The translations under genes and the position numbers were made by a program. This document shows positions 1-10,836 of a stretch of 10,836 bases of DNA, one piece after another. Source of the DNA: Bryobacterales bacterium (GTDB lineage: Bacteria > Acidobacteriota > Terriglobia > Bryobacterales > Bryobacteraceae); the NCBI GenBank assembly GCA_003132865.1, contig PKYZ01000116.1, forward strand, positions 1 through 10,836. The letters are read 5' to 3'. The notes under the pieces are model-generated. The model saw only the letters and a list, made by a program, of their open reading frames with translations, was not told where the DNA came from and did no database searches. Position 1 is the stretch's first letter. The number at the start of each line of letters is the position of its first letter.

Positions 1-15
1 ATGCCCATCCGCTTG

Positions 16-660
16 CTACTCTTTGCGGAATTGAGGGGGGTGAGCGGGCTCCTGCACTTCGGGCCGCACCAGTCTGCGCGTGAAGGCGACCCGGTCTGCC
101 AGGCGCAACTCCGGATATACCGTGTCGATGGCTTCGATCAACAGCCGGTCATTCACGGCGATGGCCACGCCGGCGTCGAACCAATGCGCCGGCTCCATCA
201 CTTCGGGACGGACTCGCTCGGCCTCCACCTGCGCGGCCCCGAATCTGGATACCGTGGGGTGGGCGGGTTCTAACCATGCAGTGCCCAGTTTCAGCCGCAG
301 AGCGCTCTGCCACAGCAGGTAAAGCTGGTAATTCCCAGGCGCCACTTTCCACGAGGCCGCTTCCTTGGCCCTAAACACAGCCGGCAACTCCCGGTGGAAG
401 AGAGTGTCTTTTAGGTGCTCCGCGCCCATATTGATATTCTTGAGCCTTCCGCCTTCGCCGATTTCGAAGACGACCGGTATGGTGGTCGTGACCACGAATC
501 CAATCTGCCTGGAAACGCGGTCGAAAGCCTCGTCGAGCTGCGTCTGGTATTGATCCCGAATCACCGTGTAGATGGATACCAGGTCGTCGAGGAGTTGCAC
601 AACGCCCGGATGAGCGGGCTCTACCCAATCACGCAGGCTTACAAACGTCTTTTCAGCCAT
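16..660 (-). CDS. Unrecognised 214-aa protein with four EPAH(P) motifs, partner of radical SAM gene
   Basis: I do not recognise this family. The ATG at 660 is chosen because a near-perfect Shine-Dalgarno sits 9 bases upstream; longer in-frame readings run into the radical SAM gene. EPAH occurs at residues 14-17, 131-134, 156-159 and 204-207, with a following proline in copies 1, 2 and 4 and tryptophan in copy 3. Copies 1 and 2 read W-V/L-EPAHP; copies 3 and 4 read RPEV-M/Q-EPAH. The ~110 residues between copies 1 and 2 are not repetitive and look like a folded domain: a predicted helix (about 21-50), hydrophobic stretches around 53-66 (TTTIPVVFEIG) and an aromatic run near 108-118. There is no signal peptide, transmembrane segment or cysteine, so it is probably cytosolic. 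It starts 29 bases after the radical SAM stop on the same strand, which suggests co-transcription. Substrate, scaffold or accessory subunit of that enzyme are all possible; this is inference. Reality of the gene is quite sure, function unknown. Confidence 0.85.
   Translation of the reverse strand: MAEKTFVSLRDWVEPAHPGVVQLLDDLVSIYTVIRDQYQTQLDEAFDRVSRQIGFVVTTTIPVVFEIGEGGRLKNINMGAEHLKDTLFHRELPAVFRAKEAASWKVAPGNYQLYLLWQSALRLKLGTAWLEPAHPTVSRFGAAQVEAERVRPEVMEPAHWFDAGVAIAVNDRLLIEAIDTVYPELRLADRVAFTRRLVRPEVQEPAHPPQFRKE
40..621 (-). repeat. Four dispersed EPAH-coding motifs in one gene
   Basis: The codons for E-P-A-H lie at 610-621, 259-270, 184-195 and 40-51. They read GAG CCC GCT CAT, GAA CCC GCC CAC, GAG CCG GCG CAT and GAG CCC GCT CAC. 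The wobble positions vary while the residues stay fixed, so the repetition is at protein level and not a fresh DNA duplication. Copies 3 and 4 also share the preceding CCCGAAGTG (Pro-Glu-Val), so those two may descend from a local duplication. Confidence 0.85.
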
Positions 661-669
661 GAAAAAGGT

Positions 670-676
670 CCTCCTT
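670..676 (-). promoter_or_regulatory. Strong ribosome binding site of the EPAH gene
   Basis: On the minus strand AAGGAGG precedes the ATG at 660 by 9 bases, in the gap between the radical SAM stop (690-692) and the EPAH start. It is a near-perfect anti-16S match, fixes the start codon, and suggests the small protein is translated more strongly than the enzyme upstream. Confidence 0.8.
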
Positions 677-689
677 AGTTGGACCGGAG

Positions 690-2444
690 TTATTGGCAAC
701 CGGTGGCAGCGGTCTGTTCCGTCAATGCGCGTTTGAAGACGTGATACGGGATGGGTCCGCCGGCAGGCCCACTCGCGCCGTTGAAGAAGTCGATCCCCTG
801 CAGGCCCTCGACGCCGCGGTATGGCAACGCGCGGCAACCGATGGACGGTAATCCAGCATTCGCCAGAGCCGGCCTTTGCTGCGCGGGATTCCCACGATTC
901 TGAAATGCTTCATCCAGCCAGCCCAGGATACGCTCGCCTTGAATGTGGAGGCTTTGGCTGCGCTGGTCCACGTGTTCGCGCATCTCCCGGGCAAAGCCGC
1001 GGATGGTCACCTGGTCGTGCGGGTCGGCCGCCGCCACGAAATCGTAGATGCGGCAGAGGCACTCGTGCGTGTCCAGGTTGGTCCGCTTGATGAAGGTGCG
1101 TACCGCGGCGCGAAGCGTCTCGGTCAGCACCTCCGGATGGAAGCGGCGCAGCAACTGGAAGTAGAAATCCACCTGCATGTTGAAATAATGCAGCCCGAAG
1201 TCGCTGAAATTGCGGTCGAAGAAGGCGTAATTGGCGACTTGGTGGAACGCTTCACAGCGCGGATCGCGCAGCCGGTAATCGAACCCGAAGTAGTCTCCCA
1301 GCAGCCGGCCCTCGGGCCGCAGCTTGGCCTCCAGGCCCGTGCCGGGGTAGGCCTCGGCGCGGCAGAAGTTGAATGGATTGTCGATGTGCCGTTCCATAAA
1401 GCGCAGGTTGATGAGCAGATCCTGCATGGTGGTGTCGGGCTCGAACATCAGCAGGTTGTAAGCCAGGTGGACATCGAAATCGTTGAGGATCTTGAGGGCG
1501 TTCAGGATTTGCTCCGGAGTGTTCTTGCGGTTCAGGTTCCGCAATCCGTTCTCGGAGGCGTTTTCCACGCCGAGGAAGACACGGAATAACCCAAGATCGT
1601 CGAGCACCCGGATGGATTCATAATTGATGCTGTCCGGCCGCGCCTTGACGGCGATCGCGATTCCGGTGACGCCCTCCCGCTCCAGACCCGCCCGCAATGC
1701 CACGAAGCGAGCGAGCGCCTTCTCCGGGTTGGGGAGAAAGAAGTTGTCGTCCTGAATATTGAAGATGCGGATGCCGTGCCGGTGGTAAAGCTCCTTCATT
1801 TCGGCTACTACGTTCTCGACGCCGCGCACGCGGAATTTCTTACCGCCGGTGCGCAGGTACCAGGCGTTGATGCTGCAGAAGGCGCAGTCGCGCCAGCAGC
1901 CCCGGCTGGTGAGCAAGCTGGCGATGGGCTTGTCGTAGTACGAGTGAAAGGTGGTGCGTGTCGGGAAGGCCAGAGTGTCCAGGTTTTCCGGGCTCCCGGC
2001 GGACGGGTTGATGGCAACGGAACCCTCCCGCGTGCGGTAGCTGATGCCGGGCAGCCGCTGGAAATCGTTCAAATTGGCGGCCATGGCGCACAACAGATCC
2101 TCGCCCTCGCCCAGGCCCACCGAATCGAAGGCCGGAAATTCCCGCAGCAGCCGCTCGCAGTTGAAGGAGGCGAACGGCCCGCCGGCGATCAGATGGCCCT
2201 TGTACCCGGCATTCCGGACCGCCTCGGCGAGTCCGCAGAACTCGCGGGCGCGGTTGGTAAATACCATCGATAGACCGGTGATTTCCGGATCTAATGCCGC
2301 GATTTGCGATACAGCCGACGCGGTATCGTGCTCGGAGTTGAAAGGCACGATCTCGGCTTGGTGCCCATTGCGTTCCAGAGCCGAGGCCATGTATCGCAGC
2401 CCCAGGTTCTCTTCGAGTTCCGCGCCAACCAGAGCGACCTTCAT
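690..2444 (-). CDS. B12-binding-domain radical SAM protein
   Basis: 584 residues if started at the ATG at 2444, which has GGAGG five bases upstream; an in-frame TTG four codons earlier is part of that site and a poorer choice. Residues 1 to ~135 look like a Rossmann-type cobalamin-binding domain (VALVGAELEENLGLRYMA, later IAGGPFAS and GLGEGED). The DxHxxG lower-ligand motif is absent, as in many B12-dependent radical SAM enzymes. The radical SAM core has C183-x3-C187-x2-C190 (SRGCWRDCAFC) for the [4Fe-4S] cluster, then a DDNFF strand end (232-236) and GVENASE (292-298), typical for SAM binding. Residues ~400-510 form a helical C-terminal region and ~515-584 a Gly/Pro-rich tail with Cys537 and Cys583. 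Members of this class do methylations and other radical chemistry on small molecules, lipids or peptides. The substrate cannot be read from the sequence; the adjacent EPAH protein is the obvious candidate. First gene of its operon. Confidence 0.92.
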   Translation of the reverse strand: MKVALVGAELEENLGLRYMASALERNGHQAEIVPFNSEHDTASAVSQIAALDPEITGLSMVFTNRAREFCGLAEAVRNAGYKGHLIAGGPFASFNCERLLREFPAFDSVGLGEGEDLLCAMAANLNDFQRLPGISYRTREGSVAINPSAGSPENLDTLAFPTRTTFHSYYDKPIASLLTSRGCWRDCAFCSINAWYLRTGGKKFRVRGVENVVAEMKELYHRHGIRIFNIQDDNFFLPNPEKALARFVALRAGLEREGVTGIAIAVKARPDSINYESIRVLDDLGLFRVFLGVENASENGLRNLNRKNTPEQILNALKILNDFDVHLAYNLLMFEPDTTMQDLLINLRFMERHIDNPFNFCRAEAYPGTGLEAKLRPEGRLLGDYFGFDYRLRDPRCEAFHQVANYAFFDRNFSDFGLHYFNMQVDFYFQLLRRFHPEVLTETLRAAVRTFIKRTNLDTHECLCRIYDFVAAADPHDQVTIRGFAREMREHVDQRSQSLHIQGERILGWLDEAFQNRGNPAQQRPALANAGLPSIGCRALPYRGVEGLQGIDFFNGASGPAGGPIPYHVFKRALTEQTAATGCQ

Positions 2445-2496
2445 GCGCACCTCCAATCGTTCGTGCTTAAAAGGATATTATCACGAAAACGGTCAT

Positions 2497-2526
2497 ATTA
2501 GATAAAAAGGTTCTGAAAATCTTCAA
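2497..2526 (-). promoter_or_regulatory. Candidate sigma70-type promoter for radical SAM operon
   Basis: On the minus strand TTGAAG (2521-2526) and TCTAAT (2497-2502) are separated by 18 bases, 4/6 and 5/6 matches to the -35 and -10 consensus. They lie in a markedly AT-rich stretch (about 2457-2540) in otherwise GC-rich DNA, just upstream of the operon. A second -10-like GATAAT at 2477-2482 lacks a good -35. Eye-based prediction only. Confidence 0.35.
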
Positions 2527-2534
2527 CCGATACT

Positions 2535-2555
2535 AAAAAGCGCGCGCCTGGCGCG
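2535..2555 (-). terminator. Weak hairpin plus T5 in divergent spacer
   Basis: On the minus strand CGCGC (2555-2551) and GCGCG (2547-2543) can pair around a 3-base loop, followed after three bases by TTTTT (2539-2535). This resembles a short intrinsic terminator that would stop antisense transcription leaving the peptidase gene before it enters the radical SAM operon. The stem is short and the T-tract is offset, so this is tentative. Confidence 0.25.
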
Positions 2556-2606
2556 TTGCCCCGAACAAACTCGCGCTGTGCGGACGCCTTGCTAAACTGA
2601 AGGGGC

Positions 2607-3848
2607 ATGGCGGCAAATCTCGCACCTATCTCCAGCCTGGTCGGCGAAGCAGCCGATCTGCGCGGCATGCGCGAGTGCCTCCAATGGTTCACGCGCGAGA
2701 AGCAGTGGATCAACGACATTCACCTGCAGCTTTGCCGCGTGCCCGCGCCCACTTTCCTCGAACAGCAGCGCGCCGAGTGGATCCTGGCGCAGTTCCGCAA
2801 TCTGGGATGGGAAGGCCATGTCGATCGCGCGGGCAACGTGGTGGCCATGCCCGATGCGCGCTCCGAAGGACCCTACGTCGCGCTCACCGCGCACCTCGAC
2901 ACCGTGCTCGCGCCGCGCGTCAAAGAAGACATCCGCGTGGAGCCGGGCGGCCGTTTTCACGGCCCAGGCATCTCCGATAACGGCGCCGGCCTGGCGGCCC
3001 TGCTGGCCATCGCGCGCGCCCTGAAGGTCTGCCCGCCGGTCGAGGGCTGGTATGCGGACCTGCTGCTGGTCGCCAACGTGGGCGAGGAAGGCGAAGGCAA
3101 CTTGAGCGGCATGCGGCACCTCTGCAAACAGTCGCCGCTGGGCAAGAAGATCGGAGCTTTTCTGGTGCTGGATGGCGCCTCGACCGATCACATTACCAAC
3201 CGCGCGCTGGGCAGCCGCCGCTTCGAAGTGATGTTCACCGGTCCCGGCGGGCATAGCTGGAGCGATTACGGCGTGGGCAACCCGGTACACGCGCTGAGCC
3301 GCGCCATCTCCCAGTTCTCCGACGCGCGCTTGAACGGCCCTCTAAAATCCAGCTTCAATGTGGGCTTCATCGAGGGCGGCGCCAGCGTGAACGCCATCCC
3401 GCCGCTGGCGCGCGCCAAAGTGGACATCCGCTCGGAGAGTAACGAGAAGATGGATGAGCTGGTGGATTGGCTCACCACCGCCATCGAGCGCGCGCTGGAA
3501 ATCGAGAATCAGCGCGCCACCGGCGGCAAGGTGGCGGTGAAGATTCGCGAGATCGGCTCGCGGCCTGCCGCCAACCTGGCCGAGCACTCCCCCATCCTCT
3601 CCTATCTCCGCGCGGTGGATAGCCACCTGGGCATCCGCTCCCACCTGGACCGCGCTTCCACCGACGCCAACATTCCCATGTCGCTGGGCATCCCCGCCAT
3701 TTCGATCGGCGCGGGCGGCCAGGGCGGCGGCGCGCACACCACCCAGGAATGGTTCAAGCCCGAAGGCCGCGACCTGGGTTTGAAGCGCATTCTGCTGACA
3801 CTGTGCCTGCTGCTGCGCGATCCTCAATTCACGGCCATCTCGCAGTGA
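2607..3848 (+). CDS. M20-family metallopeptidase (PepT/ArgE/DapE-like)
   Basis: 413 residues, a normal length for the family. M20 enzymes are di-zinc aminopeptidases, carboxypeptidases or deacylases of the cytoplasm. Visible ligand motifs in order: AHLDTV (H96, D98), SDNGAG with the bridging D124, GEEGEG (general base and ligand E160/E161), VLDG (D189), GPGGHSW (H216, dimerisation/lid domain) and a C-terminal GGAHTTQE (H377). The full set suggests an active enzyme. The overall pattern (TAHLDTV, ISDNGAG, GGAHTTQEW) is closest to tripeptide-aminopeptidase-like M20 proteins, but exact substrate is not determinable. The ATG at 2607 is preceded by in-frame TGA at 2598-2600; AAGGGG lies very close upstream, so a slightly later start is possible. 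It overlaps the downstream transporter by one base, indicating one transcript. Confidence 0.9.
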   Translation: MAANLAPISSLVGEAADLRGMRECLQWFTREKQWINDIHLQLCRVPAPTFLEQQRAEWILAQFRNLGWEGHVDRAGNVVAMPDARSEGPYVALTAHLDTVLAPRVKEDIRVEPGGRFHGPGISDNGAGLAALLAIARALKVCPPVEGWYADLLLVANVGEEGEGNLSGMRHLCKQSPLGKKIGAFLVLDGASTDHITNRALGSRRFEVMFTGPGGHSWSDYGVGNPVHALSRAISQFSDARLNGPLKSSFNVGFIEGGASVNAIPPLARAKVDIRSESNEKMDELVDWLTTAIERALEIENQRATGGKVAVKIREIGSRPAANLAEHSPILSYLRAVDSHLGIRSHLDRASTDANIPMSLGIPAISIGAGGQGGGAHTTQEWFKPEGRDLGLKRILLTLCLLLRDPQFTAISQ

Positions 3849-4735
3849 TGGGCAGTACCTTCGGGGTCCAGCGGCGCGCCGAAGCCGCGCTGATCGTCAA
3901 CACCATCATCTGGGGCGCCACTTTTGTACTGGTCAAACAGGCTCTGCGCGATGTATCGCCGGTCCTTTTTCTGGCCTTGCGATTCACCTTGGCGACCGCC
4001 GTGCTGCTGGTTCTCTTCCGCGGTTCATGGAGCCAACCCCGGAATCTCCGCTGGTCGCTGGCGGGTGGCGCTCTCGCCGGCACATTTCTGTTCGCCGGAT
4101 ACGCGTTTCAAACCATCGGCCTGCAATTCACGACCGCCCCAAAATCGGCCTTCCTCACCGGTCTCACCGCCGTGATGACGCCCGTGCTCGCCGCCGCGGT
4201 CTATCGGAACAAACCGCGCGCCAGGGAGATCGGTGGCGTTCTGCTGGCCACCTGCGGCATGGCCCTCATGACGCTGCCGACGCTGCCGGGCGCCACGCTG
4301 GCCATCAATCGCGGCGACCTGCTGACCATCTGCTGCGCGGCTTGCTACGCCGCCCACATCCTCACGCTGAGCCGCTATTCGGCCGCCGCCAGCTTCGAAT
4401 TGTTGTCTACGGCACAGATCGGGATTTCGGCGCTGCTGGCCTGGTCGCTTTGCCGCGGGATGGAAACGCCCCACATCCGCTGGACCGCGGGAGTGTGGGC
4501 GGCCATCGTCATAACGGGTGTTTTCGCCACTGCCCTTGCCTTTACTTTCCAGGCCTGGGCGCAACGCTACACTACATCCACGCGCACCGCGCTGATCTTC
4601 ATGCTCGAGCCGGTGTTCGCCTGGATTACTTCCTACCTGCTGACTGGCGAGACCCTCTCCGCCCAGGCGGCGGCGGGCGCGGGCCTGATCCTGGCGGGCA
4701 TCCTGGCGGTGGAGTTGAAACTCTTCCCTGGATGA
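3848..4735 (+). CDS. EamA-domain DMT-superfamily transporter
   Basis: 295 residues, typical for ten-TM drug/metabolite transporters of the EamA (RhaT/YdcZ-like) class. Two homologous halves are visible: the first opens with NTIIWGATFVLVKQAL (about residues 17-32), the second with DLLTICCAACYAAHILTLS near residue 160. Hydrophobic helices alternate with short polar loops throughout, and a small-residue-rich last helix (AAAGAGLILAGILAVE) ends the protein. It is an inner-membrane protein; many relatives export amino acids or metabolites. The ATG at 3848 shares its A with the TGA of the peptidase (TGATG) and has no clear Shine-Dalgarno, implying translational coupling. A longer reading from 3749 lies inside the peptidase and is rejected. 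The pairing suggests efflux of products of the peptidase, which is inference. Confidence 0.88.
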   Translation: MGSTFGVQRRAEAALIVNTIIWGATFVLVKQALRDVSPVLFLALRFTLATAVLLVLFRGSWSQPRNLRWSLAGGALAGTFLFAGYAFQTIGLQFTTAPKSAFLTGLTAVMTPVLAAAVYRNKPRAREIGGVLLATCGMALMTLPTLPGATLAINRGDLLTICCAACYAAHILTLSRYSAAASFELLSTAQIGISALLAWSLCRGMETPHIRWTAGVWAAIVITGVFATALAFTFQAWAQRYTTSTRTALIFMLEPVFAWITSYLLTGETLSAQAAAGAGLILAGILAVELKLFPG

Positions 4736-4740
4736 GTGGC

Positions 4741-4778
4741 GCACGCTTCAGCGTGCCGCCGTGGGCTTCAGCCGACGG
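4741..4778 (+). repeat. Tandem hairpins with identical TTCA loops (REP-like)
   Basis: Directly after the transporter stop, GCACGC-TTCA-GCGTGC (4741-4756) forms a perfect 6-bp stem. CCGTGGGC-TTCA-GCCGACGG (4759-4778) forms an 8-bp stem with one mismatch and the same loop. Two bases separate them. There is no T-tract, so they are not a classical intrinsic terminator. They may protect the 3' end of the transcript or belong to a genome-wide REP-like family. Confidence 0.6.
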
Positions 4779-5534
4779 TGCTGGCGGATACCTGGGGCGG
4801 GTCGGGGACCGGCAAACATGGACGCTAACTCAATCAACGCTCTCTGCCGTGGTTTCCTTTTGCGCGGGAAGTTGCTGACCTCCCTGATGCCTACCCTCAG
4901 CCAATTTCCGTCGCTTCACATATCAGCGATGCGCGTCTTGCGTCCAGTTGACGTGAGGGGGACTTAACCGGCTAATCTGTGCCCAATCCGGTGCGGTGGC
5001 GCGGCGAGGCACTCAAGACCACGAAGGACCATTCTGCACAATAAAACTGCGGACAGCAAGAGGTTTTTGTGCCAACTGAGTGCCAACTTCCGGGCTCCGG
5101 CCAGACGGGGCTTTTTGGAGCACCCTCAGGTAAGACAACTCGAACGAAAAGAAGAAATGAAGCCGATCCATCGAACACTGAGGGCTTCGTCCAACGGAGG
5201 ACCTCATTGAAGGATTGGCCGGTATAAAAGGACTTACCAGGAGTGATCTCCCAGAGCGCCGTTTGGGGGCCGCCAACACGCTCACTGGCCCCAAGGGCTG
5301 TTGCCGCCAGTCATGGGGGAGTGAACGCCCCGACTGTTCACTTCTCACCAACAGAACTTGAATCGGTGAAACCCCCGGTTCGGTGGAGGCAGCGCGTTGA
5401 AGTGGCCACGCAGAACAGGGGTTGCACAGTTGGTAGCTTCGTCTCCGGCACTGCACGGATTGTGAGGCTGGGCGCTAACCACCCCTTACGGTACACGCGC
5501 GTTGCAAGGCGCCCTCAAGCCTCCAAAATAAGCA
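4779..5534. other. Intergenic region without recognisable gene
   Basis: Short open frames exist on both strands (for example 5013-5456 minus and 5243-5554 plus), but their translations are Arg/Ser/Pro-rich, lack family motifs and have no convincing ribosome binding site. A TATAAA occurs at about 5223 without a spaced -35. I saw no tRNA, terminator or repeat array. It separates two converging units, the peptidase/transporter operon and the secreted repeat protein. Confidence 0.5.
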
Positions 5535-8500
5535 TCACTGAATTGTCACATTGACTGTGTTGGCGGCTTGCCCGTCTGCGGTAAGCAGGATGTTGACGCT
5601 TCCTTTACCCGCCAACGACTGCGGCAGTGGGCCGATGTTTACCTGATCCTCTCCAGCGAAACCCGGCGCCGCCCCAGCGTACAACACCGGCACGCTCAGG
5701 CCGCCCACCGTCACCGTGACGCTTTTGGCGTTGCGGATGCCCGTGCCGTACATCTCCAGATAAACCTGTTCCGTGGACGGCCCGAGATTGATCGGCAATG
5801 GAATCACGCTCCCGGATGCGATCTGGTACACCGGCTGCAACGGTTGCTGCGTTCCTGAAATCACCGGCAGGACCAAGGCCGCTACCAACCCCGAGCCATT
5901 TAACTCGAAGATCCCTGGCGAAACGCTGCCGATTGAGATAGTTGTGGACTGAATAGTCCCATTCTGATTCTGGAACGTCACCGTCGCAGTTCCCGTGGCC
6001 GTGCCTGCCGGAATCTCGAAATTGATCTGCGAAGGCGAGACATAAAATAGGGAAGCCTGACGCGCGACGCCGGATGAGTCTGTGACCGTCACTGTGTTGC
6101 CATCTAGCGATGTCGGCAGCGGTAAACTCACCGCCGAAGCTGTTCCGCCGGCCAAGTTTATGCCATATACCGAGACGATGGATTCCCCCGCGAAGGGTTC
6201 GACTTGTCCAGCCGTGGCTAGTGTGACTGTCGCGGAGGTTGCGGCGATCTTGGCTACAAAGCCGTGGGAGCAGCAGGGGTTGTTGCTGGCGGTCGTCTGG
6301 AATGCGCCGGGAGTCGTGATCAGGTTCGGGCCGCCGTTATTGCCGGCGAGATAGATGTCGCCGGCGGAGTCGACTGCCAGCCCGGCCGGACTCGCGGTGT
6401 CGAGCCCACCGGACCCAATGCGCGTGGAAAACAGCAGGTTAGCGCCCGTGGGGTCAAGCTCGGCGACGATTACGTCCATCTGCCCGCCGCTTGGGGCTGG
6501 CTCAACCGGATTGACCGATGGGAAACCGGATCCGGCTTCTTGCCCCATGATATAGATGTTCCCGTTCCCATCCAACTGGATGGGGCCGGTAAAGAATAAC
6601 GCGTCGCTGCCATCGCCCTTGCTGTCTCCCACAAAGGTGGACCAGACGATGGAGGTGGCGGTAGGATTCAGCTTGGTCACGTGGGCTGCCGCGCAGTTCT
6701 GGCCATTCGGCCCGCAGACGGTCGAATAAGCGCCGGGTGTCACGGGAAAATCCTTAGAATTGGTATATCCGGCGATATAGGCATTGCTGGCGCTATCGAT
6801 GGTGATGCCGCTGATGAAGTCGCCTGTATTCCCAGTTTTCCCGCCAAGGTAGGTGGCGTAGGCCAGCGATGCCCCACCGGCGGAAGTGACCGGATTGAAC
6901 TTCGCAACGAAGCCGCGCCACGCTTGCACATAGGTTGCTGGGTTGCCCAGAGGAGCACCGTTAGGCTGAACCACGCCGGCGGTCGTCGGCAGGTTGCTGG
7001 CCTGGGTCTCGCCGACCAGATAGAAGTAGCCGTTGGCATCCACCGTTACGCCAGTGCCATACGTGCCGCCGCCGCAGGCGATGATGCACTTGAAATTCAA
7101 GTCGCCAAAGAGCGTGGAATAGAGCAACTGGGCGCCGGTGGGATCGAACGCCGCGACGAAAGCGAACTGCGGGTCGCCTCCGACAGGTTGGTTTCCTGCG
7201 ATTACCGCGCCGCTGGTCGTGGGAAAGCAGGATTGGAACGTATAGGGGAGACCTCTGTAGCAGTCCTCGTCCTCGTTGCCGGCAATGTAGGCGCGGCCGG
7301 CGCCATCCACGGCAATGGCGGTTGCGTATGCGTACGAGCCGTTGCCGCCAAGAAAAGTCGAGTAGACCAGGCCCGTTCCGGTGGAATTCAGCTTGGTCAC
7401 AAATGCGGACGTGTTAGAGGTGCCGCAGTTGGAGGAATTCGGGATGGGCGCCCCTGTGTTGTTGGGGCTTGGGGAGCAGACTGTCTGGTACGCTCCGGCG
7501 GTTGCCGGGAAATCGGGCGAGTCCGTCTCACCGGTCACGTAAGCATTGCCACTGGAGTCCACCACTATGGCGTAGGCGTAGTCATAGCCGTTGCCGCCCA
7601 AATAGGTGGAATAAACCAGCGAGCTGCCATCCGGACTGAACTTGGTCACAAACGCTGAAGGCCATTGCCCTGGAGGCACGCCCGTCACTTTTGCCGGAGG
7701 CGCGCTTTGATAAGGGTTCTTCGTCGGGAAGTCGATGGAGTAGGTGTAGCCCGTCACATACGCACTGCCCGCGCTGTCTACCGCGATGCCCTGCGACGTA
7801 CCGTTCGGATTGTTATCGAGCGCCCGCCCGATGTGATCGTTGCCACTCCCGGCAAGATAGCTGGCATAGCTGAGCACGGGATCGATGATCAGCGCTCTCG
7901 AATGGTCGTAGCTGCCAAGCCGGAAGCGTATCTGGTTCCCGGCCACGGCGAACGCCCCTTCGACGCTGGTCTTCTTGTCTCCATCCATCTGGTACAGCAC
8001 CGGTTTCTTGAAGCTGGCCGGACCGTTGGGCGCACTCAGAGCTAAATTGCCCTCCGCGTCGACGCTGGCGCGGGCGCCGTCGATCCGCCAGGCGATGCGG
8101 TTGGGGTCGGCGCCGGGGGCGACCACAAAGTCGTACTCCAACTGGCGCTGATTACCGTAAAAGACCAGATCCACGCCACGGTAGATCTGGGGATACTTGA
8201 CCTTGCCATAGGTCGGGATGCCGGAGCGCCAGTTCTTCGGATCGTTGCCGATGAAGTAGTTCACCACGCCGGGCTGCCGGGCCAGTCCTACTGCGTTGGC
8301 CTCGGGATTTGCCCCGATCAGGCTCATGCGCAGGGTGTCGACGGACGCGGCTTCCGGTGTTTGCCCCGTCGCCGCGGCCGATGCCGGCTGTTGCCGCTCC
8401 AGGTTCAGGACGACCTTGCCCGGAGTGAGGAAGAGCGCGTAGCCGGAACCGCGCGAAAGAAACTGAACCGTGGATGCCAACTGTCCCTGGTTCGGCTCGA

Positions 8501-8714
8501 AACTCAATGGCACGCTCATGAGCTTCGTTTCGGGGCTGTTCGTGGACTGTGGGATAGATCGGGCGGCCGCTGGCGCCGCCTGCCGCTCGTTATCTCGCGA
8601 GGCCGCGGACGCGCGCGACCAGCCCATACCAAAGGAGATCGAAATTATCGTGAGCGCCGTTATTGCCCGGAGCGCCCGCGCCCGGGGCGCAATCGAAGAT
8701 CGTTCGCTTGTCAT
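5535..8714 (-). CDS. Secreted SBBP-type beta-propeller repeat protein with Solibacter C-terminal domain
   Basis: 1059 residues from the ATG at 8714, chosen because it opens a signal peptide (RARALRA, hydrophobic ALTIISISFGMGW, then ASAAS around 36-39) and has GAGAGGGA nine bases upstream; a longer reading from 8807 would bury the signal. Residues ~68-280 are the N-terminal domain found before SBBP repeats (LSFEPNQGQ, FLSRGSGYALFLT, YRGVDLVFYGNQRQLEYDF). About seven blade repeats follow from ~282 to 825, with the pattern Y-S/A-T-x-L/F-G-G ... AVDxxGxAYxxG ... FPxTxGAYQT. Residues ~833-1059 are the C-terminal domain named for Solibacter (TIGR03437 type: EPFAGESIVSVYG, VSPSQINFEIP, SPGIFELNGSG, GEDQVNIG). 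Paired cysteines in several blades (for example 412/430, 484/495, 813/814) fit an oxidising compartment. Such proteins are exported, multi-copy in these genomes, and of unproven role; surface binding or carbohydrate interaction is speculation. Monocistronic by context. Confidence 0.93.
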   Translation of the reverse strand: MTSERSSIAPRARALRAITALTIISISFGMGWSRASAASRDNERQAAPAAARSIPQSTNSPETKLMSVPLSFEPNQGQLASTVQFLSRGSGYALFLTPGKVVLNLERQQPASAAATGQTPEAASVDTLRMSLIGANPEANAVGLARQPGVVNYFIGNDPKNWRSGIPTYGKVKYPQIYRGVDLVFYGNQRQLEYDFVVAPGADPNRIAWRIDGARASVDAEGNLALSAPNGPASFKKPVLYQMDGDKKTSVEGAFAVAGNQIRFRLGSYDHSRALIIDPVLSYASYLAGSGNDHIGRALDNNPNGTSQGIAVDSAGSAYVTGYTYSIDFPTKNPYQSAPPAKVTGVPPGQWPSAFVTKFSPDGSSLVYSTYLGGNGYDYAYAIVVDSSGNAYVTGETDSPDFPATAGAYQTVCSPSPNNTGAPIPNSSNCGTSNTSAFVTKLNSTGTGLVYSTFLGGNGSYAYATAIAVDGAGRAYIAGNEDEDCYRGLPYTFQSCFPTTSGAVIAGNQPVGGDPQFAFVAAFDPTGAQLLYSTLFGDLNFKCIIACGGGTYGTGVTVDANGYFYLVGETQASNLPTTAGVVQPNGAPLGNPATYVQAWRGFVAKFNPVTSAGGASLAYATYLGGKTGNTGDFISGITIDSASNAYIAGYTNSKDFPVTPGAYSTVCGPNGQNCAAAHVTKLNPTATSIVWSTFVGDSKGDGSDALFFTGPIQLDGNGNIYIMGQEAGSGFPSVNPVEPAPSGGQMDVIVAELDPTGANLLFSTRIGSGGLDTASPAGLAVDSAGDIYLAGNNGGPNLITTPGAFQTTASNNPCCSHGFVAKIAATSATVTLATAGQVEPFAGESIVSVYGINLAGGTASAVSLPLPTSLDGNTVTVTDSSGVARQASLFYVSPSQINFEIPAGTATGTATVTFQNQNGTIQSTTISIGSVSPGIFELNGSGLVAALVLPVISGTQQPLQPVYQIASGSVIPLPINLGPSTEQVYLEMYGTGIRNAKSVTVTVGGLSVPVLYAGAAPGFAGEDQVNIGPLPQSLAGKGSVNILLTADGQAANTVNVTIQ

Positions 8715-9043
8715 ACTCGCTGTCCCTCTCTGTCCTCCCGGAATGTCGCAGGCTTTCATTAGCCAGGATTTCCGTTTTGGCCTCCTTGCCAACGTCAAGA
8801 ATAACACCAGTGGAGCCGTTTATCTCATTTCTTTCTATCCTGAGGGACTCCAGCGGCCCACGAACGGCCAGCTCTGGCTTTCCGGGAGTGCAAGAACGTG
8901 GAAGTACCTCATTTCAAATAATTTGTTAGAAGAATGCGTGGCGGCTTGCACCGGCGGCCCAGCCTGACGCCGCAGCGTTTACCGGCACTGCCGGCGCGCC
9001 GTTCGAGTGCTCCGCCCGGCCACGTCTCGGAGGTTGGCGCGTT
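8715..9043. other. Upstream region of the repeat protein; no gene seen
   Basis: The stretch holds the 5' region of the minus-strand repeat-protein gene. A TTGACG on the minus strand near 8795-8800 could be a -35 element, but no good -10 follows at the proper distance. An AT-rich patch near 8910-8935 is another possible promoter site. An AAGGAGG on the minus strand near 8787 lies too far from any start in frame. No convincing gene is present on either strand. Confidence 0.4.
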
Positions 9044-9083
9044 TGAACCGGACGAGTCCGGCGGCTCGTCGACGTCCGGTTCA
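9044..9083. repeat. Perfect 11-bp inverted repeat next to integrase fragment
   Basis: TGAACCGGACG (9044-9054) is the exact reverse complement of CGTCCGGTTCA (9073-9083), with an 18-base spacer. The spacer allows competing pairs: GACGAG (9051-9056) with CTCGTC (9065-9070), and CCGGAC with GTCCGG around 9048-9061. It lies 13 bases past the stop of the recombinase fragment. No T-tract follows, so it could be a recombination or attachment site remnant as well as an RNA 3' hairpin. Confidence 0.6.
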
Positions 9084-9096
9084 GAGCCGGTAACGG

Positions 9097-9483
9097 TCAG
9101 GCGTCTTCAAGGCCTAGGTTGTCGTTCACCGCGTGCCGAAGTTTCTGCTTGCGGCCCAGGTAACGCTCGGTCGTTTGAACCGTCGCGTGGCCGAGCAGAA
9201 ACTGGATTTGTTCCAGTTCTCCACCCGCCAAGTGGCACAACCTCGCGCAACTGCGCCGCAAATCGTGGGGGGCTGGGTTCTTGATACCAGCGCGTTGCGC
9301 AGCACCTTTCACAATATGCCAGATCGCTTTCGGCGTGATGCCATCGCCCCAGACTTTGCCCATCCGGTTTACTCGCCGGAAAATTGTCCCCCCACTGATT
9401 TCCGCCGACGCGATCCACGCGTCGATGGCTCGCTTCACCCAGCCCGGAACCGGAACCGTGCGCATGTGCTTTCCCTTGCCGAT
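9097..9483 (-). pseudogene. Tyrosine recombinase (phage-type integrase), N-terminally truncated
   Basis: The reading frame encodes the C-terminal catalytic half of a site-specific tyrosine recombinase. Counting from the internal ATG at 9465, the active-site box H67-x2-R70 (HDLR), H93 (LLGH) and the nucleophile Y102 (TTERYLG) are all present. The frame continues upstream of that ATG with IGKGKH, which with MRTVPVP makes the usual family strand, so the ATG is not a true start. An in-frame TGA appears a few codons further upstream. The core-binding domain and the first catalytic arginine are missing. Full-length relatives are usually about 300-400 residues; about 129 remain. Homology ends near 9484, where an opposite-strand transposase-like tail begins. 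It cannot recombine DNA by itself. Remnant of an integrated element. Confidence 0.82.
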
Positions 9484-9487
9484 CGCG

Positions 9488-9589
9488 CACGACGATGTGA
9501 TCCGTCACCTGTGCGAAGAACTGAACGCGACCGAAACGCTGTTTCCGGGAACCGGGCTCAAGCTAATCTACAAACTTGGCTCTTCTTAA
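9488..9589 (+). pseudogene. C-terminal remnant resembling a DDE transposase tail
   Basis: Thirty-three codons before a TAA read like the end of a longer protein: HDDVIRHLC, EELNATETLFPGT and LKLIYKLGSS. The LNATET-FPGT-LxLxYxLGSS pattern resembles, from memory, the C-terminal tails of transposase proteins in soil bacteria, but I cannot verify the family. No plausible start or upstream domain exists in frame, because the preceding DNA is the antisense of the recombinase fragment. The two remnants therefore meet at about 9484-9488. Confidence 0.35.
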
Positions 9590-9973
9590 TTCCATGAGAT
9601 CAGGAGGTCAGAGTCTTGTCTCCGCAAGATGAGCCTGAAGGGGGGATTAGGCACGCCAGGGATTGATCAGCATGGAAAAACGAGAGCAGTTGAGCATGGA
9701 GTAGAATGTCACCTGAATATCCGGGTCCTGCCAATTTGATACGGATAGCACAGAGGCAAGTCATCAGTGCTTCCCGGCCATAGGCTCAGGCCAGAAGTCC
9801 GGATTTGCGAAGCTTGGGCTCTACTGGGATTTCTCCCGTGAAACGCTCCCCACAGAAACGATCCTCCGCTTGCCTTGCCGCCTCAAGCGCGGGAGTGAAG
9901 GGCCAAGTGCGAACTCATTTCCCTCACACGCCCCACCCATAGTGGCCGTCCGCACACGCAACGCGATTCCAAG
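9590..9973. other. No recognisable gene between mobile remnants and toxin-antitoxin locus
   Basis: Both strands carry only short frames without motif or ribosome binding site. An AGGAGG at about 9602-9607 is not followed by a useful start codon. Probably decayed DNA of the same accessory region. Confidence 0.45.
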
Positions 9974-10015
9974 CTCGCTGCCTTCGCTGCGCCGCCAGCG
10001 AGGGTGCTCTACAAT
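9974..10015 (+). promoter_or_regulatory. Candidate promoter and operator of the DUF433/DUF5615 pair
   Basis: CTCGCTG (9974-9980) and CAGCGAG (9996-10002) form a perfect 7-bp inverted repeat with a 15-base spacer. A -10-like TACAAT (10010-10015, 5/6) follows, with no good -35 at the usual distance. The repeat covers the -35 zone, where an autoregulating antitoxin would be expected to bind. The leader before the ATG at 10034 would be very short. Prediction by eye. Confidence 0.3.
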
Positions 10016-10033
10016 GGAAGGAAAGAGGATCCC

Positions 10034-10282
10034 ATGTCGCACTGGCAGCCAGCCGCATACAAGGAATATCAATGGATCGTAGCCGATCCCCAGCTCCTTG
10101 GCGGGAAGCTGGCAATTCGCGGTACTCGGCTGGCCGTCTCTCTGATCCTCGAATGCCTGGCTAGCGGCATGTCTCTTGATGATATTGATCAGTCTTTCGA
10201 TTGCGACTTTCCGCGTCAGGCCTTACCCGAGGTTCTGAAGGTCGCCTCCGAGTTCACCGACTCCTTCCATGTGGCTGCTTGA
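10034..10282 (+). CDS. DUF433 family antitoxin-like protein
   Basis: 82 residues, a normal size for DUF433 (VapB-like, winged-helix-type small proteins). The family signature is clear: IVADPQLLGGKLAIRGTRLAV (residues 15-35), then LILECLASGMSLDDIDQSF (37-55) with the usual L-A-x-G-x-S-x-x-[DE]-I pattern, and a final helix EVLKVASEF. The start at 10034 is preceded by AGAGGA at a 5-6 base spacing. Family members are typically encoded just before DUF5615/PIN-like toxins and are thought to bind DNA and neutralise the toxin. Here the next gene overlaps by 14 bases in another frame and fits that pattern, but is frameshifted. The antitoxin itself looks intact. A role as a stand-alone DNA-binding protein is possible now that the partner seems broken. 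Confidence 0.88.
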   Translation: MSHWQPAAYKEYQWIVADPQLLGGKLAIRGTRLAVSLILECLASGMSLDDIDQSFDCDFPRQALPEVLKVASEFTDSFHVAA

Positions 10283-10603
10283 CGCCAATATGGACGTGCA
10301 TCTGGTGTCCGTCCTGACCGGTTTCAAGATTCCTGCGACACCGCTGGGAGACGCGGGTGGAAGGCCCTTTCGAATGGCGACCTCGTGAGCATGGCCGTGG
10401 ACGCAGGCTTCCGCTGCTTGCTCACTCGGGACCAGCTCTTTGGCGAATCCGCTTCCCGCGCTCTAAAGCTGTTTCCGCAATTCGCAGTCGTGGTGGTGAA
10501 CGTCCCACAGCGACCTTGGCCCCAATATCGAGAACAATTCCTCGCACTATGGAGGGAACACCTAATTGAGCCAGTAGCCGGCCAGTTGATTCAGTGGCCA
10601 TGA
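10269..10603 (+). pseudogene. DUF5615 (PIN-like) toxin gene, frameshifted
   Basis: The ATG at 10269 lies within the end of the DUF433 gene. It reads MWLLDANMDVHLVSVLTGF KIP, then the frame goes off and stops at the TGA 10386-10388. From TGC at 10334, one frame over, the family sequence resumes: CDTA, GWKALSNGDLVSMAVDAGF, LLTRDQLFGESA, ending QLIQWP before the TGA at 10601-10603. One missing base near 10331-10334 explains the break; restored, the protein is about 111 residues, normal for DUF5615. The PIN-like acidic residues are visible: D5 in LLDAN, GDLVSMA, and TRD in LLTRDQLF. The family is regarded as toxin ribonucleases paired with DUF433. As read, only 39 residues would be made from the native start, so it should be inactive unless the base is a sequencing error. 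Confidence 0.8.
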
Positions 10604-10751
10604 GGTGGCACCATTGCTCCCGGTAAGCGCCATTCACTGAAAACGGGCGATTTCGGTTCGGGACGAGGCATTTGGACGCGTTGTCATTCCGGACTTGTGC
10701 CACTTGCGATCCGGGAACGGCGTAATGGAAGGCGGCTCCAAGGGGGAGCGT

Positions 10752-10836
10752 TTATGGGCCGGGGGTTGCCTTCTGCGCCTGCCGGGCGTCCCACATGCGC
10801 CGCATCCTTCTGGCGAACTGCCGCGGCTTCTCGTCG
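10752..10836 (-). CDS. Possible C-terminal end of a gene cut by the window edge
   Basis: From the right edge the minus strand reads 27 codons without a stop: DEKPRQFARRMRRMWDARQ, then AQKATPGP and TAA at 10752-10754. The composition (alternating Arg, Met, Trp, Ala in helical spacing, with a Pro/Gly tail) looks more like a real protein end than the other frames. No family can be named. A small hairpin (GCTCC with GGAGC, about 10736-10749) follows the stop on this strand but has no T-tract. The 148 bases between 10604 and 10751 hold nothing else I can support. Confidence 0.3.
   Translation of the reverse strand, partial: DEKPRQFARRMRRMWDARQAQKATPGP

Follow-up and report, generated by a model that had tools for sequence, protein, structure and literature searches.

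What does a cobalamin-type radical S-adenosylmethionine (SAM) enzyme do beside a small protein that repeats the tetrapeptide EPAH? This question was raised by a locus of a Bryobacterales bacterium (assembly GCA_003132865.1, contig PKYZ01000116.1, positions 1 to 10,836; the whole stretch of 10,836 nucleotides is called the window below). The enzyme gene (690-2444, minus strand) encoded 584 amino acids (aa) from the ATG at 2444, and the gene for the EPAH protein, the proposed substrate (16-660, minus strand), encoded 214. The first-pass annotation had described two same-strand genes 29 bases apart, and both open reading frames (ORFs) and the gap between them (661-689) were found as described; the window ended 15 bases beyond the 3' side of the EPAH gene. 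With somewhat better than even confidence, we interpreted the locus as a two-gene module in which a cobalamin-dependent radical SAM enzyme would methylate the neighbouring protein, its dedicated substrate, at the EPxH tetrapeptides. Judged from the sequences, the enzyme most likely modifies the repeated motif of its partner protein.

The gene pair and its two proteins

Both genes were present together in all 17 genomes, bacterial and archaeal, that held either gene of the EPAH clade, in addition to the window; they were adjacent in 16 of these genomes and had one gene between them in the other. A scan of 84,980 species genomes with the EPAH protein gave 11 loci (Brocadia, ANME-2, Bryobacteraceae, Bryobacterales, Deltaproteobacteria, Syntrophobacterales, Desulfuromonadales, Methanoperedens, and Nitrospinae), and the enzyme gene was adjacent in every one of them; the first-pass annotation had named a consistently adjacent radical SAM gene as support for its claim. 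The enzyme gene came first in ten loci, with intergenic gaps of 30 to 327 bases, and the order was reversed in L002. Searches with the enzyme added six further genomes (G665, G757, G775, G839, G872, and G886); the EPAH gene was next to the enzyme gene in five, and a same-strand gene for a DUF900 hydrolase stood between the two in G775. An EPAH-clade enzyme and an EPxH-repeat partner shared a cluster in 18/18 loci. The annotation had named two observations that would speak against its proposal, and neither turned up: no EPAH protein occurred without the enzyme in the 11 loci or in the samples of 244 and 240 genomes described below, and no enzyme of the subfamily stood beside a motif-less partner in the 18 loci.

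In a sample of 244 genomes from the class of G004, the same 8 genomes contained the enzyme (E up to 1e-90) and, at E up to 1e-5, the EPAH protein; neither was found in the other 236, with at most 5 enzyme and 11 EPAH candidates scored per genome. Among these 8, G004 was the seed, G006 and G008 were already known, and 5 were new. In a sample of 240 genomes from the class of G011, the EPAH protein occurred in G011 only, and so did the EPAH-clade enzyme. The pair was rare: it was seen in 1/247 and 1/246 genomes of two phylum samples, the seed in both, where scoring stopped at 10 candidates per genome and some may be missed. It was also seen in two of the 150 genomes of one family (G007 and G003, both known before), in 1/34 genomes of the Methanoperedens family, in 2/62 genomes of one order, and in 4/136 genomes of the order of G008, none of them new. 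A protein search with the enzyme, capped at 7995 candidates, matched at least 768 clusters, and 17 lengths of the longest contig were common to the listed enzyme and EPAH sets (120 each), compared with a mean of 0.7 and a maximum of 6 in a jittered control. The enzymes of the relatives were 56-72% identical to that of the window across bacteria and archaea (66% for the archaeal ones). This identity, combined with the rare and patchy presence of the pair in distant lineages, points to strong constraint and suggests that the pair spread by horizontal transfer.

The EPAH motif was located at residues 14-17 (610-621), 131-134 (259-270), 156-159 (184-195), and 204-207 (40-51, all minus strand) of the window protein. 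Thus, the four EPAH copies claimed earlier for this 214-residue protein were present, whereas the trailing P of the proposed EPAHP motif held at three copies and was replaced by W at one. In an alignment of 105 rows, the first copy read EPAH in 104; the second read EPAH in 96 and EPVH in 7, the third EPAH in 97 and EPVH in 6, and the fourth EPAH in 96 and EPVH in 6. E, P, and H were each conserved to at least 98% at all four sites and were among the most constant letters of the protein. The structure model of the protein had a folded core with motifs on both sides of it; copies 2 and 3 lay in predicted disordered loops and copy 4 in a predicted disordered C-terminus (predicted local distance difference test score, pLDDT, below 50 for each).

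A search of about 5.8 billion proteins with the EPAH protein (E up to 1e-3) returned 722 clusters, and among the best 120 of them 115 contained at least three EPAH and five contained two or fewer. The latter carried EPVH, EPGH, and other variants (EKVH and ERVH in P0012, ECVH and DPAH in P0085), and P0042 looked frameshifted. We combined these 120 with 10 sequences from loci chosen for two or more EPAH, and the resulting 130 homologous sequences contained 527 EPAH against 0.46 expected from composition, although they are related and the 527 are therefore not independent events. One-letter variants affected A 30 times (25 EPVH), E twice, P once, and H six times. Position -2 was mostly W or V; P, F, or W usually came after H. 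The number of EPAH copies per sequence ranged from 0 to 8 and rose with length, with 7 in P0043 and L002 and with 8 EPAH and 9 EPxH in L011. Relatives were 40-83% identical to the EPAH protein of the window over the aligned part.

The part of the core at residues 57-119 (304-492, minus strand) aligned with the fused tails of the sister enzymes described below and had a putatively TolA/TonB C-terminal-like arrangement. Neither Pfam, including its TonB/TolA C-terminal domain profile, nor NCBIfam matched the EPAH protein up to E 1, and no sequence match was found in the PDB. Foldseek gave no match to the core at E <0.001, with TolA/TonB matches within noise, and no signal peptide was apparent by eye. 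Two unusual relatives were also observed. A divergent EPAH protein at L036:719-1435 (minus strand) had its motif extended to FRPPPEPAH and looked intermediate between EPAH and the proline-rich sister motifs. The Methanoperedens EPAH protein (L009, 10001-10693) had four EPVH in a row and ended in KAGH; its C-terminus may be degraded, since the profile match continues beyond two stops.

The enzyme had been annotated as a radical SAM protein with Cx3Cx2C at residues 183-190 and a cobalamin (B12)-type N-terminus, and both Pfam and the alignment confirmed this. Residues 11-120 (2085-2414, minus strand) matched the cobalamin-binding domain PF02310 (E 1.7e-14, 54.2 bits against a cut-off of 32.1), N-terminal to a radical SAM core at residues 179-335 (1440-1910, minus strand; PF04055, E 2.1e-18, 67.5 bits against a cut-off of 29.5). 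The cysteines of the cluster motif (Cys 183, 187, and 190; 1875-1898, minus strand) were invariant in 74/74 rows and common to EPAH-clade and sister enzymes; the same alignment had 140 invariant columns. The enzyme thus belongs to the cobalamin-binding radical SAM class, and cobalamin binding and methyl transfer are predicted for it. Its AlphaFold model (mean pLDDT 84.4) matched OxsB first in Foldseek (E 2.7e-20), then MgmA, TsrM, CysS, AprD4, and TokK, and the best PDB match by sequence was MgmA (9ccb, E 9.3e-13). None of the best 25 of the 33 NCBIfam models matching the enzyme reached its cut-off: the best was HpnR (TIGR04367, residues 12-371, 95.4 bits against an equivalog cut-off of 650), and the scores for rSAM_ocin_1 (TIGR03975, 82.2 bits against a subfamily cut-off of 281.85), ApyD (NF050148, 76.3 bits against 750), and MgmA (TIGR04014, 63.2 bits against an equivalog cut-off of 360) were likewise below. 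Basic residues such as K267, R269, R288, and R362 were common to the enzyme groups (18 EPAH-clade and 31 sister rows); they would suit an acidic target, and their placement in the active site is putative.

The ribosome binding site AAGGAGG of the EPAH protein (670-676, minus strand) ended 9 bases 5' of its ATG, and the same spot in 11 relatives carried AGGAGG in 6 and a weaker variant in 5. The strong ribosome site reported earlier for the EPAH gene was therefore real, but the contrast drawn with the enzyme gene did not hold up as more than weak evidence, because GGAGG also preceded the start of the enzyme gene in the window.

Sister enzymes and their motifs

Applied to the sample from the class of G011, the EPAH-clade profile gave 80 matches in 43/240 genomes (E up to 1e-90). 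The EPAH-clade seed scored 996 bits and the other 79 scored 310-550 bits; these sister enzymes were found in 42 other genomes, with up to 5 copies per genome. We examined 49 sister loci, namely 47 of the 79 and two from the 150-genome family, and found a motif-bearing tail or neighbour in 42. Another three stopped at a contig end (L041, L046, and L047). Among the 32 fused tails longer than 60 residues, 10 carried EMAP-type motifs, 21 carried three to eleven DPxP, and none carried both; L025, whose locus also lay at a contig end, had neither. The EMAP-type tails (L038-L040, L042-L045, L078, L079, and L083) had two or more motifs in 9/10 cases, with only EMMMEP in L040, and several included a TonB-C-like-looking domain, of which L078 seemingly had two. 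The fused DPxP tails belonged to L048-L057, L059, L060, L062, L064, L065, L080-L082, L084, L087, L088, and L090, many of them following a hydrophobic stretch and a Cys that resembled a lipoprotein signal by eye. In addition to the 21 tails with three to eleven DPxP, the motif was seen in the tail of L087, which was ended by the contig end, and in that of L061, whose frame was broken by masked bases. Nine loci (L024, L058, L063, L066, L086, L089, L091, L092, and L093) instead had a separate downstream protein in which a V-(V/C)-D-(P/M)-x-P motif was recognized by eye, mostly after a signal-like stretch; L089 had two VVDPxP-type proteins in tandem.

The first batch of 22 fused tails contained 65 DPxP, where shuffles gave 11.9, and 21 EMx(x)P, where shuffles gave 1.7. 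The merged motif was counted 96 times forward (22.3 shuffled) and 66 times reversed (22.2 shuffled), and the reversed EM control was not enriched (0 against 1.7).

The partner type followed the enzyme phylogeny. On a tree of 49 rows, from which the duplicate locus L037 was dropped and a further set of sister loci left out, the 18 EPAH enzymes formed one group with support of 100/100, as did the four enzymes with separate DPxP partners (100/100), and the window enzyme grouped with two Bryobacterales enzymes (90/94), so that an acidobacterial origin of the window is probable from the tree as well. With five labels, partner type changed 7 times against 26.1 with the labels shuffled, and 0/200 shuffles were as low. 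The fused DPxP label needed 2 changes and the fused EMAP label 3, the latter because L040 and the rows ended by contig ends were labelled as unassigned. Partner type thus clusters by enzyme clade; since near relatives cluster, this result describes clustering and not independent gains.

We compared a profile of the EPAH family with one built from 12 EMAP-type tail pieces, excluding the short tails of L038 and L083; the two aligned across the beta-alpha-beta part of the core with a score of 36.9 (probability 56%, E 1.1e-4 for the pair). The controls scored at most 17.2 (50 column shuffles), 15.8 (reversed profile), and 11.4 (14 DPxP tails), and a six-row version of the tail profile scored 35.1 against at most 15.9 in 20 shuffles. 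Motifs stood before and after the domain in several sister tails, as they do in the EPAH protein. Because of this alignment and the flanking motifs, the EPAH protein looks like a separate form of what sister enzymes carry fused.

A broader proposal, to which we give an even chance, is that the EPAH enzymes form one lineage within a superfamily of B12 radical SAM enzymes that has yet to be described. Each member would be dedicated to a repeated acidic-x-x-Pro/His tetrapeptide (EPAH, EMAP, DPxP, or DMLP) of a neighbour or of its own C-terminal, apparently exported lipoprotein-like tail. Such a repeat-coded modification would have enzyme and motif diversifying together across bacteria and archaea.

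Competing explanations and neighbouring genes

Under methylation of a dedicated substrate, the EPAH protein would present EPxH on flexible loops that surround a small TolA/TonB-C-like domain. At its [4Fe-4S] cluster, the enzyme would cleave SAM reductively, and it would use methylcobalamin to add a methyl group to an sp3 carbon of every motif copy. The acidic residue or a position beside it is the most likely place, because the acid is common to EPAH, EMAP, DPxP, and DMLP, whereas the second letter can be P, M, or A and the fourth H or P. Several identical modified sites could then allow multivalent binding of a metal, a cofactor, or a protein. A substrate role would explain together the strict pairing, the E-P-x-H constraint in flexible loops, the gain of copies, and the natural fusions. 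The earlier suggestion that the EPAH protein is the substrate thus gained support from pairing, motif constraint, and fused sister tails, while the modification itself, i.e., the motif as its site, C-methylation as the change, and the atom changed, is what we infer; C-methylation is the default drawn from the protein-acting relatives.

Several observations weigh against this interpretation. A motif whose sole role was to bind a metal or the enzyme would be conserved in the same way, and recognition alone would leave the same trace as modification at the acid. Methylation is drawn from fold and superfamily only, since the NCBIfam methylase models, HpnR at best, scored far below their cut-offs. 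Four of the 49 sister loci (L025, L085, L094, and L095) had no motif partner; in L094 the protein after the enzyme was lipoprotein-like and had a long (TD)n repeat but no DPxP. Because the 22 tails are repetitive, the reversed control P.PD was enriched in them as well (46 against 11.8), which makes the exact frame of the DPxP-group motif uncertain. One DPxP by itself was common background, upstream of the enzyme in 7/18 and downstream in 3/18 EPAH loci, so only DPxP repeats and shared context count, and the separate one-motif partners were assigned by eye from the shared V-(V/C)-D-(P/M)-x-P context. The homology between tails and core depends on few and divergent rows at the probability given above.

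The motif might be modified by a different chemistry, such as a C-C or C-S crosslink, a ring contraction, or an oxidation within E-P-x-H. We hold this unlikely, though worth keeping in view; its probability overlaps with that of methylation because the two share the substrate claim. The top fold match, OxsB, is a ring-contracting enzyme with a small-molecule substrate, whereas both protein- or peptide-acting relatives that we looked up, MgmA and ApyD, methylate; the motif itself is compatible with all of these chemistries. In another reading, rather unlikely in our judgement, the EPAH protein serves as a partner or carries a cofactor: Glu and His of its motifs would bind a metal or deliver the cofactor, and a small molecule or lipid would be the substrate of the enzyme. 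E and H are possible ligands and were rarely replaced, and the best-scoring NCBIfam model is a lipid methylase; however, a copy number of 0 to 8 among the 130 sequences is unlike a fixed site, and the DPxP and EMAP motifs of the sisters contain no His and often form part of the enzyme chain itself. An all-against-all comparison of ORFs found no other gene family in more than 2 of 12 loci, several of them on short contigs, which agrees with a carrier but counts against a ribosomally synthesized and post-translationally modified peptide (RiPP) system.

In a RiPP system the EPAH protein would be a precursor, cut and exported after modification, and this we consider improbable. The rSAM_ocin_1 and ApyD models do score, under their cut-offs, and repeated motifs recall multi-core precursors. 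On the other hand, the partners were 214-395 aa long, with a folded core in the model and motifs on both sides of it, in place of a short precursor. No protease or transporter recurred in more than 2 of the 12 loci, with ten neighbours scanned against Pfam and the RiPP recognition element (RRE) not searched for. That the two genes are chance neighbours is hardly credible: two genes on one strand are common, but this pair was kept in 17/17 genomes, both or neither were present throughout the 244-genome sample (8 and 236), and relatives retained 40-83% identity to the EPAH protein. Methylation of a dedicated substrate therefore remained the interpretation that we favour.

Some neighbours were observed near individual pairs. 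A LuxR-type regulator recurred in 2/12 loci (identified by Pfam in one), with a similar regulator seen by eye upstream in G775, and a protein of 737-781 aa recurred in 2/12. Two related ORFs flanked the Methanoperedens pair (L009, 7059-8105 and 11315-12409), one of which was a radical SAM protein with a SPASM match. Elsewhere in the window were a 1090-aa protein with DUF7948 and SBBP beta-propeller repeats (5535-8807, minus strand) and a 122-aa ORF, probably a remnant, that matched phage integrases (PF00589) in their C-terminal part (9097-9465, minus strand). A DUF433 protein (PF04255) followed by a small ORF without a Pfam match (10004-10603, plus strand) had a toxin-antitoxin-like arrangement. 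A viral origin and carriage on plasmids were considered and rejected: none of 50 pattern matches in viral contigs was a relative, and none of 106 matching plasmid records covered more than 80% of the enzyme, with 30.9% identity in the one ranked first.

Comparison with known systems

The annotation knew of no described radical SAM substrate with an EPAH motif, and the literature that we searched, mostly papers free of subscription and by title and the start of the abstract, gave none either. It contained no description of the EPAH pair and no published name for the sister clade with fused EMAP/DPxP tails. The EPAH pair is therefore a proposed protein-modification system for which no description was found, within a class of B12 radical SAM enzymes that is itself known. 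A conserved enzyme with its own repeat-bearing partner offers a simple two-gene handle on EPxH as a possible new modification site. The fused sisters resemble natural enzyme-substrate fusions, and as such would indicate which motif many unannotated enzymes target.

Two of the nearest characterized enzymes act on lipids or small molecules. HpnR, the best NCBIfam match, is a hopanoid C-3 methylase with a lipid substrate, and OxsB (5ul3), the best Foldseek match, was 17% identical to our enzyme and acts on a small molecule. The sister clade from the class of G011 has the same enzyme core and either repeats its motif in cis or has one in trans, but differs in its motifs and in the many lipoprotein-signal-like stretches that precede its tails by eye.

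Few B12 radical SAM enzymes act on whole proteins; the part of the source available to us names MgmA and MamA/Mmp10, both acting on methyl-coenzyme M reductase, where MgmA makes 2-methylglutamine (PMC11796369). MgmA (TIGR04014, 9ccb) is similar to the enzyme studied here in that a B12 radical SAM enzyme modifies a protein residue, and among solved structures it is the closest in sequence and one of the closest in fold. Its substrate, as far as that text describes it, is one residue of a large catalytic enzyme and not the repeated motif of a neighbour. ApyD (NF050148) makes beta-methyltyrosine in a peptide, a change of +14 Da, according to the portion of the report that we could consult (PMC10635010). 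It resembles the EPAH enzyme as a B12 radical SAM enzyme that acts on a peptide encoded in the same cluster, but there the substrate is a precursor peptide, with an RRE, P450, multinuclear non-heme iron-dependent oxidase (MNIO), and methyltransferase as partners.

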